Shown in pieces: positions 1,743 through 6,180 of a DNA stretch of 6,181 nucleotides. The DNA is taken from the NCBI GenBank assembly GCA_903930515.1, contig CAIYYW010000270.1, positions 1 through 6,181 of the forward strand, read 5' to 3'. The position numbers and the translations under genes are program-made. The stretch's first letter is position 1. Each line of letters opens with the position of its first letter. The DNA comes from an uncultured delta proteobacterium (GTDB lineage Bacteria > RBG-13-61-14 > DRUE01). The notes under the pieces were generated by a model that saw only the letters and a program-made list of their open reading frames with translations, was not told where the DNA came from and did not search any database.

Positions 1743-2540
1743 ATGCGCGTTAAAAAGATCCTGGTTATTTCCGTGGTTTTAGCCGCGGTCGCCACGATCG
1801 GGGCCTGGCTGGTTTACGCGCGGGACAATCAAGTTCTTCCCCAGTCCGCGGTTGACCTGCTCGCGGAATTGCCGGCGCCGGCGCCGGGCCGGACCATCCT
1901 GGTGTTCACTCCGCATCCGGACGACGAGACCATCGCGGCCGGGGGATATATTTTCTCGGCCACCCGTGCCGGGGCCCAGGTCTGGATCGCGCTGGTGACC
2001 GACGGCAATTTTCATCACCAGAAGGAAATCCGGTATGCGGAATTCAAGAAGGCGGCCGCGGCCCTGGGGGTTTCGGAGGATCATTTGATTTTCCTGGGCT
2101 ACCCGGACCACCAACTGGCGGGACAGGATTTGAGCCGGGTCCGGGGTCGGTTTGAAGAAATCATTTCAACCATCAAGCCCGAGATCGTGATCACTTCTCA
2201 TCCGCAGGACCATCATCCTGACCACCGGGTCACCGGCGAGCTGGTGGAGGCGATCTGGCGGAACCGTGATTTTACCCTCTACGAGTTCCTGGTGCATCAT
2301 AACCTTTTCCCGCATCCCAAGGGAATGAACCCGCATTTGTATCTTCTGCCCCCGGCTCGGATGATCAGCTTTGGGAGGACCTGGGAGGTTTTTCCGCTGA
2401 GCGATGAGGTGGAAACGCAAAAGCATAAGGCCATCCTCCAGTATCGGTCTCAACTATCGGACCGGCGCGATCCTCTACTCGCCGGACTCCTGGTCGGGAT
2501 GCTCAGGAAGAACGAGTTGTTCTCGGTGCCGAGCAAATAG
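1743..2540 (+). CDS. PIG-L/LmbE family N-deacetylase with N-terminal export or anchor segment
   Basis: Zinc-dependent de-N-acetylase of the PIG-L/LmbE family (relatives: MshB, PIG-L, BshB), which remove acetyl from N-acetylglucosamine-type substrates; the substrate here is unknown. Numbered from the ATG at 1743 (265 residues), THPDDE-type motif PHPDDE at 57-62 gives zinc ligands H58 and D61 and base D60; HHPDHR at 157-162 gives the third ligand H161 and the likely catalytic H158. Residues 6-26 are hydrophobic after the basic start MRVKK and end in VYA, a possible signal peptidase I site, so the domain is probably periplasmic or membrane-tethered and may act on an envelope glycan (inference). 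A TTG at 1683 would add 20 residues and has AGGA ten bases upstream, but it displaces the signal-like start and lies over the trpB2 -35 box. The 1743 ATG has only a distant AAGGA (1718-1722), so the start is uncertain. The gene runs convergently toward phoH. Confidence 0.9.
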   Translation: MRVKKILVISVVLAAVATIGAWLVYARDNQVLPQSAVDLLAELPAPAPGRTILVFTPHPDDETIAAGGYIFSATRAGAQVWIALVTDGNFHHQKEIRYAEFKKAAAALGVSEDHLIFLGYPDHQLAGQDLSRVRGRFEEIISTIKPEIVITSHPQDHHPDHRVTGELVEAIWRNRDFTLYEFLVHHNLFPHPKGMNPHLYLLPPARMISFGRTWEVFPLSDEVETQKHKAILQYRSQLSDRRDPLLAGLLVGMLRKNELFSVPSK

Positions 2541-2547
2541 CGGCGAT

Positions 2548-2764
2548 AAGCTTTATCAGGGTGTTGAAAAAGTCTATTCTCGGCAAAAACTTTGGAAAAA
2601 TGTTTCACCTCCCTTGATGGGATGGGAACAAGGAGAGGGTGATTTGGGCCTTATTTCGCAAAGCTTTGCGGGCTTTCATCACGCATTGAATTCAAGCGAC
2701 CCTCTCCCCGACCCTCCCCCCTCCCAGGGGGAGGGAGCTCTTTTTCAACAGCCTGTTAAAGCTT
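2548..2764. mobile_element. MITE-like foldback element with 25-bp terminal inverted repeats
   Basis: The arms at 2548-2572 and 2740-2764 match at 23 of 25 positions when one is reverse-complemented; both contain CAGG and TGTTGAAAAAG. The interior also folds back: GGAGAGGGT (2632-2640) pairs with ACCCTCTCC (2699-2707), ACCTCCCTT near 2608 is complementary to the GGGGGAGGG block near 2727, and the perfect palindrome CGCAAAGCTTTGCG (2657-2670) sits near the centre. No transposase or convincing ORF lies inside, so it would depend on a transposase elsewhere. The exact boundary is unclear: AAGCTT stands at both outer edges (2548-2553, 2759-2764) and, being palindromic, could be repeat end or target duplication; a TA at 2554-2555 and 2757-2758 is an alternative. 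It fills the gap between two convergent genes. Confidence 0.75.
2712..2745 (+). terminator. Terminator-like hairpin inside the foldback element
   Basis: CCCTCCCCC (2712-2720) and GGGGGAGGG (2727-2735) form a perfect 9-bp GC-rich stem with a 6-nt loop, followed after AGCTC by TTTTT (2741-2745). It reads in the right direction to end transcription from the PIG-L gene 170 bases upstream, for which no other terminator is visible. The five-base gap before the T run weakens the call. Confidence 0.45.
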
Positions 2765-4096
2765 TTCCGAGGTCAGTTCCGCGAGTCGGCTCCGCTCCCC
2801 TTTTTCCAAAAAAAGGTATCCGAAGAGCGGCTCGCCCCGCAAGCGGTTGGCGATATAGCTGAGCGCGTTGCTGCTGGAATCCAGGTAGGGATTATCAATC
2901 TGGTAGGGGTCGCCGGTGAGAACGATCTTAGTCCCTTCTCCGGCGCGGGTGATGATGGTCTTGACCTCGTGGGGAGTCAGGTTCTGCGCCTCATCCACCA
3001 CAATGTATTGGCCGGGGATGGACCGGCCCCGGATATAGGTCAGCGGCTCCACCTGGATCACGCCGAAATTGATCAGGTCCTGATATTCCGGGATCCGGGG
3101 GCCTTTGCCCTTTTTCCTGTCCCCTTCTTCCGCGCCGCGCTTTTTCTGAAAAATGAAATCCAGGTTGTCAAAGATCGGCTGCATCCAGGGCTGCATCTTC
3201 TCCTGGACATCCCCGGGCAAAAACCCCAACTCCTTGCCCATCGGGAAGATCGGCCGGGAGACCAGCAAGCGTTCATAGCGGTTGTCATCCATGGTCTGAT
3301 GAAGACCGCAGGCGATCGCGAGCAGGGTCTTGCCCGTGCCGGCCTTGCCCAACAGGGCCACCAGTTGAATCTCCGGGTCCATCAGCAAATCAAACGCCAA
3401 ATATTGCTCCGGGTTTTTCGGCTTGATCCCGGTCGCGCCCCCCGAATAATCAGGGAGCCGAAGGATTTTTCCCTCCTCTCCGTCAAACCGGCCGTATCCG
3501 GTTTTGCCCGGGTCGGACTTTGCGGAAAAAATCACCATCCGGTTGGGAAAAAAATCGTCCTGCAGGGCGAGCCAGCCCTGGCTTTCAAATTGCCCGAATT
3601 CCTGATCGCTCAATTCCTTCTTCACCCAGCCCCGGTCCATCTCCGAAAGCGCCACCCGGCCCTTGGCCTCGTAGTCAACCGCCTTCATCCCGAGCGCGTC
3701 GGCCTTGAGCCTTAAGTTGATGTCCTTGGTGATGAACACGGTCGGGACCTGGGGCTGGTCGCGATGGAGCGCGTAAGCAGTGGACAGGATCAGGTTGTCC
3801 GCCTTTTTTCCCATCAGGGACTTGGGCAAGATGCCCTCGTCGCCGGAAAGGTCAATCCGGACCATCCCGCCCTGCGGGATCTCAACCCCCTGGCTGAGCG
3901 ATCCCTTTTGACGGAGCTCATCCAGGAGACGACCGATGGTCCGCGCGCTCCTTCCCAGCTCGTCAACATTCCGCTTGAACTGGTCCAACTCCTCCAGAAC
4001 CACAATCGGAATAATAATATTGTTGTCCTCAAACTTGAAGATCACCTGAGGGTCATACAACAGCACATTCGTGTCAAATACAAAATTTTTCTTCAT
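2756..4096 (-). CDS. PIN-PhoH fusion protein (PhoH-like ATPase, YlaK type)
   Basis: Two-domain cytoplasmic protein joining a PIN ribonuclease-fold domain to a PhoH-type P-loop ATPase, a family thought to act as RNA helicase/nuclease; the cellular role is not settled. PIN domain, about residues 3-145: FVFDTNVLLYDP with D8, then E35/E36, D100 (KADNLIL) and D125 (TKDINLR), the acidic metal-binding set. PhoH domain, about 225-446: KNPEQ at 227-231, Walker A GKAGTGKT at 250-257, Walker B VVDEAQN at 366-372, and TGDPYQID at 394-401. A lysine/arginine-rich insert (about 317-334) is probably a surface loop. The ATG is supported by GAGGTGG four bases upstream. The C-terminus GERSRLAELTSEKL resembles the family's normal end, yet its stop codon and possibly the last two codons lie inside the terminal repeat of the foldback element. 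Nothing links it functionally to its neighbours. Confidence 0.95.
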   Translation of the reverse strand: MKKNFVFDTNVLLYDPQVIFKFEDNNIIIPIVVLEELDQFKRNVDELGRSARTIGRLLDELRQKGSLSQGVEIPQGGMVRIDLSGDEGILPKSLMGKKADNLILSTAYALHRDQPQVPTVFITKDINLRLKADALGMKAVDYEAKGRVALSEMDRGWVKKELSDQEFGQFESQGWLALQDDFFPNRMVIFSAKSDPGKTGYGRFDGEEGKILRLPDYSGGATGIKPKNPEQYLAFDLLMDPEIQLVALLGKAGTGKTLLAIACGLHQTMDDNRYERLLVSRPIFPMGKELGFLPGDVQEKMQPWMQPIFDNLDFIFQKKRGAEEGDRKKGKGPRIPEYQDLINFGVIQVEPLTYIRGRSIPGQYIVVDEAQNLTPHEVKTIITRAGEGTKIVLTGDPYQIDNPYLDSSSNALSYIANRLRGEPLFGYLFLEKGERSRLAELTSEKL

Positions 4097-4326: not shown

Positions 4327-6180
4327 ATGGCGCAGATTAAGGGCGAGAGAAGGCTTTCAAAAATTTCAGCGATCCCAATTTTCATCATATTAGCATTTTT
4401 GCTGGCTGTTTTAATTGTCAAGCCGTTTGATATAGCTATTTATAGGCTTGATTGGGCTATTATAAATGGAGACCTGGACCGGGTGCAATCAATGATCAAT
4501 GAACGGACCGATTTGGTCAATTCCTATGATTTATTCGGTTTTACACCCCTGCATTGGGCGGTGAGAACCCGCCGGAAAGAGATAGCATTTCTGCTCGTAA
4601 ATCATTGGGCTGATCCTTATCAAAAGGATCTTTTTGGAAAAACTCCGCTTGGGATTGCGGAAAAGGATGTTCGCGGCAGTGAGGATAAGTCAATGTTTTA
4701 TTATACCCTGCAAGAGCAGATTACCCAAATAGAACGGAAACAAAGGGCTATTTTGAAAAAAACGATTCAAGAAGGAGATTTTGCTAAATTTAAGCAAAAC
4801 CTCATTTATGGCAAGGAATTGATCAACTACGAGCCGGTGGATGGAGACTTTGACCTGTTATGCTGGGCCGCCTTTAAAGGCAGAAAAGATATGTGTGAGT
4901 TGCTTTTAGCAAGAGGGGCGGATATTAATAGAGAGACAAAATTCGGGGACACACCTTTGAGCCTGGCCGTTTCCAGTCGGCATTTGCAGGTTGTCCAATT
5001 ATTAATCAAAAGCGGCGGGAACGTGAACTCTGGCGACCGGACCCCGCTCTTTATGGCCAGTTATATGGGTTATCCGGAAATTGCGGAGTTGCTATTAAGA
5101 TCGGGAGCCGAGGCAAATGCTACATCAGGAGATCATCTTCCCGCGGATATAGATGCCATTGATGGAAGGGTGATGCCCTTGACCGCCGCGATTGTTAATG
5201 GAAATTTGGAAGTGGCCTCAATTCTATTCCGGCATCATGGTCAGTATAATAATAAATTCACTTATTATTTGCAAAACCCGTATGATACCGAGCATGGATA
5301 TTTTCCAAACGCTAAGATTATCCATATTGCCGCGGCGAGAACCAATCCCGGAATCTTGCAGTTGCTGCTTGACCAAGGCGAAAGAATTGATGAAGAAACG
5401 GAATTTTGCTTTGATAGAGGGGGAAGCATTTGCAGCAAAATTTCAACCATGGAGGCCGCGGCAATTAGAAGGAATGGCAACAACCTGTTGTATATTTTCA
5501 AAAAATCCGGCTTGAGCGAGAGAAAAATCAATTTTGCAACAAAAGAGATGGGCGACAGTTTCATTTTCAATGCCTCGATCCTTCAATATTCTATCGCAAT
5601 GGGTGATTTGGAGATCGTGAAAATTATTTTAGGATTTGGAGCGGATGTTGAAGATGAATCCTCCTTGACACTATGGTGGGCGCAAGGGCCGCAGGTGGAG
5701 AAATGGAAGCCCTTGGATACTGCGGTTTATTTTACCGATCAGGAAAAGGCCTTGCCTATAATAGAATTATGTATAAATTATGGCGCCAGCGTAAATTCCA
5801 AGGTTGTTTCTAAAATTGCGGCGGATTTTGATGGCGCGGATCCGCTTCTTTTGGCGGCCATGGAAAGGTTTCGGCCAAAAACGAAAATCGTAAAGATCTT
5901 ATTGGAAAAGGGCGCAAACCCCAATACCAGCAACCGGAACGGATTTACTTCACTACATTATTCAGCTATGAATGGAGATATTGAGGCGGCGCAACTATTG
6001 ATTGAGCATGGGGCAAAAATCAATGCTGAAGGATTAAATGGAATTACTCCCATAAATATAGCCAGGGCCGCCAATCAGATTAAGATGTGCGAATTCCTGA
6101 TCAAAAATGGCGCCATCGCGGCATCCTTGAGCAAACAGGGTGAAGATGCCCTGCATCAGATGATTGATCTGGGGGACTGA
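4327..6180 (+). CDS. Membrane-anchored ankyrin-repeat protein
   Basis: A 617-residue protein with a basic N-terminus, one hydrophobic segment (about 14-31, ISAIPIFIILAFLLAVLIV) and no cleavage motif, then a long ankyrin array probably outside the cytoplasmic membrane. Clear repeats: 71-112 (GFTPLHWAV, GKTPLGIA), about 173-265 (DLLCWAAFKGRKDMCELLLARGAD, GDTPLSLAV, RTPLFMASYMGYPEIAELLL), and about 505-600 (DPLLLAA, GFTSLHYSAMNGDIEAAQLLIEHGA, GITPINIARA). Stretches 113-145 and 266-440 are degenerate, with only weak matches. The chain ends in GEDALHQMIDLGD, part-way into a further repeat, which may be natural or a truncation. Ankyrin arrays bind proteins; no catalytic domain is visible and the partner is unknown. 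Codon use is markedly more AT-rich than in the other three genes, suggesting a different origin. The ATG at 4327 fits the promoter position; no Shine-Dalgarno is present. Confidence 0.9.
   Translation: MAQIKGERRLSKISAIPIFIILAFLLAVLIVKPFDIAIYRLDWAIINGDLDRVQSMINERTDLVNSYDLFGFTPLHWAVRTRRKEIAFLLVNHWADPYQKDLFGKTPLGIAEKDVRGSEDKSMFYYTLQEQITQIERKQRAILKKTIQEGDFAKFKQNLIYGKELINYEPVDGDFDLLCWAAFKGRKDMCELLLARGADINRETKFGDTPLSLAVSSRHLQVVQLLIKSGGNVNSGDRTPLFMASYMGYPEIAELLLRSGAEANATSGDHLPADIDAIDGRVMPLTAAIVNGNLEVASILFRHHGQYNNKFTYYLQNPYDTEHGYFPNAKIIHIAAARTNPGILQLLLDQGERIDEETEFCFDRGGSICSKISTMEAAAIRRNGNNLLYIFKKSGLSERKINFATKEMGDSFIFNASILQYSIAMGDLEIVKIILGFGADVEDESSLTLWWAQGPQVEKWKPLDTAVYFTDQEKALPIIELCINYGASVNSKVVSKIAADFDGADPLLLAAMERFRPKTKIVKILLEKGANPNTSNRNGFTSLHYSAMNGDIEAAQLLIEHGAKINAEGLNGITPINIARAANQIKMCEFLIKNGAIAASLSKQGEDALHQMIDLGD

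Follow-up and report, generated by a model that had tools for sequence, protein, structure and literature searches.

A 199-bp element with IS5-type ends, very probably a type II MITE, between two convergent genes of an uncultured delta proteobacterium

Positions 2557-2755 of the window, i.e. the whole stretch of 6,181 bp that was analysed (contig C270 of a 3.65-Mb assembly with 401 contigs and 93% completeness), carry a non-coding element of 199 bp. This element is very probably a type II MITE: only its ends correspond to those of an insertion sequence of the IS5 family, and as a non-autonomous DNA transposon it would be moved in trans. The reading is directly supported by the ends themselves, by copies at unrelated sites, by YTAR target duplications and by transposase-bearing elements with matching ends elsewhere. 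Type II MITEs derived from IS5 elements are a known kind, and the element in the window is an unreported family of that ordinary kind; no report of the family or of its wide end signature was found in the literature that could be searched.

Limits of the element and its target site

Prokaryotic MITEs are shorter than 500 bp, non-coding, bounded by terminal inverted repeats of about 4-30 bp, present in dispersed copies and flanked by a target duplication. The limits of the 199-bp element (given without strand, as are the target copies and the inner cassette described below) were taken from an alignment of the copies in its own genome and from comparing it, over its full length, with some 50 elements of other genomes. 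Its left terminal inverted repeat, CAGGGTGTTGAAAAAG (2557-2572, plus strand), and its right one, CAGGCTGTTGAAAAAG (2740-2755, read on the minus strand), are 16 bp long, match at 15 of 16 positions and follow the pattern CAGG[G/C]TGTTGAAAAAG. An inverted pair of this kind (16 nt, at most one mismatch, spanning 150-260 bp) occurs once in the window and was absent from five composition-preserving block shuffles. The open reading frames overlapping the element are mechanical only, and the transposase that the initial annotation had found to be lacking is not among them.

Longer repeats of 25 bp and an extent of 217 bp (2548-2764) had been proposed initially. On recomputation, the segments 2548-2572 and 2740-2764 indeed match at 23 of 25 positions, but the actual repeats comprise only 16 bp. 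Joining the window flanks with a single TTAA yields ...GATAAGCTTTAAAGCTTTTCC... (the joined site would read ...GATAAGCTTTAAAGCTTTTCCG...), with AAGCTTTAAAGCTT forming a perfect palindrome. Consequently, 8 of the 25 matching bases on each side belong to a palindromic target and not to the element. The two target copies, TTAT on the left (2553-2556, TTAA with one change) and TTAA on the right (2756-2759), were recognised from the YTAR duplications of other copies and elements and correspond to this 4-bp consensus of IS5 type. The single mismatch in the left copy is a point against the MITE reading.

Two convergent genes flank the element and leave almost no other sequence between them. A gene of the PIG-L (GlcNAc-PI de-N-acetylase) family (1743-2540, plus strand, Pfam PF02585) ends with its stop codon 12 bp ahead of the left target copy, and a gene for a protein with PIN and PhoH domains (2756-4096, minus strand, PF02562 and PF13638) has its stop codon TAA (2756-2758) inside the right one. 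Since the target lies at the stop codon of the phoH-like gene and in the short gap between convergent genes, neither flanking gene is broken. The two other genomes of the phylum that were compared contain no close orthologue of the phoH gene, the best matches being about 39% identical, and hence offer no orthologous locus at which an empty site might be seen. Adjoining this gene, positions 4327-6180 encode a large protein with ankyrin repeats and a hydrophobic segment at its N-terminus.

Copies and transposons with the same ends

BLAST of the own genome revealed five copies including that of the window, the other four being about 80-86% identical to it. Two of these are full-length and have perfect target duplications, namely those on contigs C220 (85% identity, flanks TTAA/TTAA) and C37 (82-83%, CTAA/CTAA). 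The remaining two, on C97 (86%) and C47 (80-81%), are cut by contig ends, as repeats commonly are when short reads are assembled. The flanking sequences of the sites are unrelated, and outside CAGG...CCTG the aligned copies diverge except for the 4-bp duplication. Within these limits, the same interior recurs at near constant length in all five copies, which argues that the short form itself was multiplied. This genome also contains a shorter, AT-rich element whose terminal repeats are the same but whose interior is unrelated (G000:C111:1-134, L046); the contig begins inside it. Plasmid and phage collections contained no sequence similar to the 199-bp element.

Full transposons with the ends of the MITE were present at three loci among the matches listed. 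They measure 1.27-1.35 kb and are flanked by CTAA/CTAA (L106, 1312 bp, and L124, 1274 bp) or CTAA/TTAA (L104, 1348 bp); their hosts lie outside this phylum, which weighs against the MITE reading. The transposases, 362-373 residues in length with DUF772 and DDE_Tnp_1 domains, reach 242-279 bits on the IS5-family model NF033581 of NCBIfam, for which the cut-off is 140. Since these enzymes score as IS5, the ends are the same and YTAR has been reported as the target duplication of IS5 (PMC10359306), the ends of the MITE can be assigned to the IS5 family. The initial annotation had thought them familiar from insertion sequences without naming a family. Compared with IS5 insertion sequences themselves, the element shows the YTAR duplication and 16-bp ends identical or nearly identical to those of the three transposons, but it has a length of only 199 bp, no transposase and an unrelated interior. 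Because this interior has nothing in common with the end-matched transposons, the definition in PMC10969869 places the element among type II MITEs: the ends are shared with an autonomous IS5-family element, the interior is not, and the duplications are 4-bp YTAR with CTAA, TTAA and TTAG dominating.

A search of the own genome with the family model and by alignment of the three transposases detected no IS5-type transposase of this kind, so that a transposase flanked by the same ends was found in other bacteria but not in this assembly. A matching transposase in the same genome is usual for a type II MITE, but not required. Its absence here weighs against the MITE reading but is no bar to the assignment, since repeats break the assembly, which is 93% complete, and since a MITE may persist after its parent has been lost.

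The ends of full IS5-family transposons would also be present on a decayed or internally deleted remnant (a relic or type I MITE), as opposed to a short form that multiplied with an unrelated interior. We consider such an origin improbable: the interior is a palindromic cassette and not transposase sequence, and it is the same in five copies of near constant length. No autonomous parent is present in the assembly.

For the type II MITE we propose the following course of transposition. An IS5-family DDE transposase, supplied in trans, would recognise both CAGG[G/C]TGTTGAAAAAG ends, move the 199-bp unit and insert it at a 4-bp YTAR target, which would thereby be duplicated. In the window, this target would have been TTAA at the stop codon of the phoH-like gene, in the short gap between the convergent genes. 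Presumably, an enzyme of this family mobilised the copies in the own genome; its gene would since have disappeared or have escaped assembly.

The ends are distributed widely. Scanning about 85,000 genomes with the pattern AACAGGSTGTTGAAAAAGTC returned at least 115 stretches from Deltaproteobacteria, Nitrospirota, Gammaproteobacteria, Fibrobacteres and others, and about 50 short elements of 62-328 bp with both ends occurred among the matches listed. Identical 4-bp flanks were found in 32 of 52 distinct pairs among the matches listed (CTAA 15, TTAA 8, TTAG 8, ACAA 1), the 52 including a few inner mis-pairings within one element. The scan pattern starts with AA and therefore determines two of the flank bases at one end of every match, those at the partner end being free. 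Re-pairing the flanks at random, which preserves this bias, gave a mean of 11.6 identical pairs and a maximum of 23 in 20,000 shuffles, against the 32 observed. Element families of about 160 bp, mostly from Sedimenticola, carry a second inverted copy of the end nested just inside the outer one (L111, L061, L076, L108 and L122).

Folding and non-mobile alternatives

The foldback structure described in the initial annotation is real. As single-stranded DNA the element folds with -55.7 kcal/mol (z = -6.3), which none of 200 shuffles equalled, and as RNA either strand folds with z of about -5. The 14-bp palindrome CGCAAAGCTTTGCG noted earlier near the centre is present at 2658-2671, but its perfection is private to the window copy; the other copies read CGCAAGGCTTTGCG or CGCAAGGCTTTGTG, with a G in the middle. 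In the MITE, the interior palindromes are presumably cargo or structure only.

Strong RNA folding of both strands, the site between convergent genes and a hairpin followed by a T run after the PIG-L gene (2712-2742, plus strand) would also suit a bidirectional transcription terminator or another structured, immobile intergenic RNA. Terminator-like matches are, however, about as many as chance predicts (two found in the scan, about one expected, a weak signal), and no Rfam family matches the element. Copies with the same ends at unrelated sites, in which flank identity stops exactly at the duplicated YTAR, render this explanation highly improbable, and a pure terminator was rejected. A terminating effect on the PIG-L gene following insertion of a MITE is nevertheless possible, if only faintly suggested by the hairpin.

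REP/BIME-type repeats lack a target duplication, usually occur in more than 100 copies and are associated with tyrosine (RAYT) transposases. That the element is such a repeat and owes its mobility to a REP-associated tyrosine transposase is hardly credible and was likewise rejected: it is palindromic and intergenic, and its cassette also occurs outside the MITE, but the 16-bp inverted ends and the duplicated target are those expected for a DDE transposase, the end-matched transposases are IS5-type DDE enzymes, and copies are few. The initial proposal of a MITE candidate is supported by most of the checks suggested for it, namely the copies at unrelated sites, the target duplications and the full transposons with the same ends elsewhere.

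Palindromic interiors and related MITEs

The inner C/G-rich hairpin cassette of the MITE (CTCCCTTGATGGGA... GGAGAGGGTGA ... ACCCTCTCC ... CCTCCCCCCTCCCAGGGGGAGGG, 2600-2737) is not confined to these ends. Its inner part, CTCCCTTGATGGGA..GGAGAGGGTGA..ACCCTCTCC..CCTCCCCCC(TCCC)AGGGGGAGGG, recurs in two elements of G002, a genome of the same order, which have other ends (GGGC[A/T]TGTTGCCCAAA) and lack the central 40-50 bp. In the own genome the cassette is partly present on contig C38, outside any such element.

The two G002 elements belong to another MITE-like family, bounded by GGGC[C/A/T]TGTTGCCCAAA and roughly 107-270 bp long, which was observed in all three genomes of the phylum examined. 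Each genome contains about 21-34 end matches (at most two mismatches) versus 2-5 for a reversed control pattern. Examples are G002:C121:19088-19249 and C116:21001-21162 (L010, L016, L206, L212) as well as G001:C254 (L195).

Short elements with the same IS5-type ends and palindromic interiors were also observed in other phyla, in three groups (L059:4791-4944, L078:1745-1933 and L114:1900-2137; L064:3259-3411 and L135:1222-1386; L065:2106-2251). We take these interiors to be the widely seen palindromes that give rise to spurious open reading frames (translations like VIPAKAGIQ, HPEPFGYAQGKLREG and SPREKVRMRG). When three well-known palindromes of this kind were counted in other genomes, they occurred in 6 of about 50 elements (8.2 kb), versus some 10 occurrences outside such elements in 58.7 kb of DNA free of ORFs, a count that is only a lead because the motifs were chosen after the elements had been seen. 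Nothing relevant to the end sequence or to VIPAKAGIQ-type repeats turned up in the literature searched.

Comparable elements are known. The Neisseria ATR, a type II MITE with ISNme1 of the IS5 family as proposed parent (PMC4596501), is likewise non-coding, repeat-associated and of modest copy number and has only its terminal repeats in common with its IS5-family parent, but the end sequence differs and ATR is AT-rich, in contrast to the C/G-rich cassette in the window. In Porphyromonas gingivalis, the BrickBuilt MITE trapped a repeat (PMC4596501). BrickBuilt, MITE239 and MITE464 resemble the present element in their IS5-type ends and in an unrelated, repeated interior that was seemingly trapped, although the BrickBuilt interior is a tandem 23-nt repeat and its target duplications are irregular. 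The Chunjie MITE of Geobacter (PMC10969869) is similar by description: its non-coding copies measure 178-235 bp, lie mostly between genes and have conserved ends as well as direct repeats, a likeness that leaves end sequence and parent aside.

The cassette between other ends in G002, its occurrence outside the MITE on C38 and the different palindromes in elements of other phyla suggest, as far as sequence comparison goes, that palindromic cores and transposon ends may combine freely, as in BrickBuilt. Tentatively, widespread palindromic cassettes, here of the CCTCTCCC..GGGAGAGG type and of other types elsewhere, might even be interchangeable interiors, transferred between MITEs whose ends differ.

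With the present analysis, a phylum represented here by only three genomes gains a MITE family whose exact ends and target are defined. A single signature, CAGG[G/C]TGTTGAAAAAGTC beside YTAR, ties together short non-coding elements in many phyla, which annotators could label accordingly. Most worth following is the sharing of the inner cassette between elements that differ in their ends, on which ideas about the origin of MITE interiors can be tested. If the exchange of cassettes proves true, MITEs would consist of swappable ends and cores and would serve to carry repeats that occur in many different phyla.
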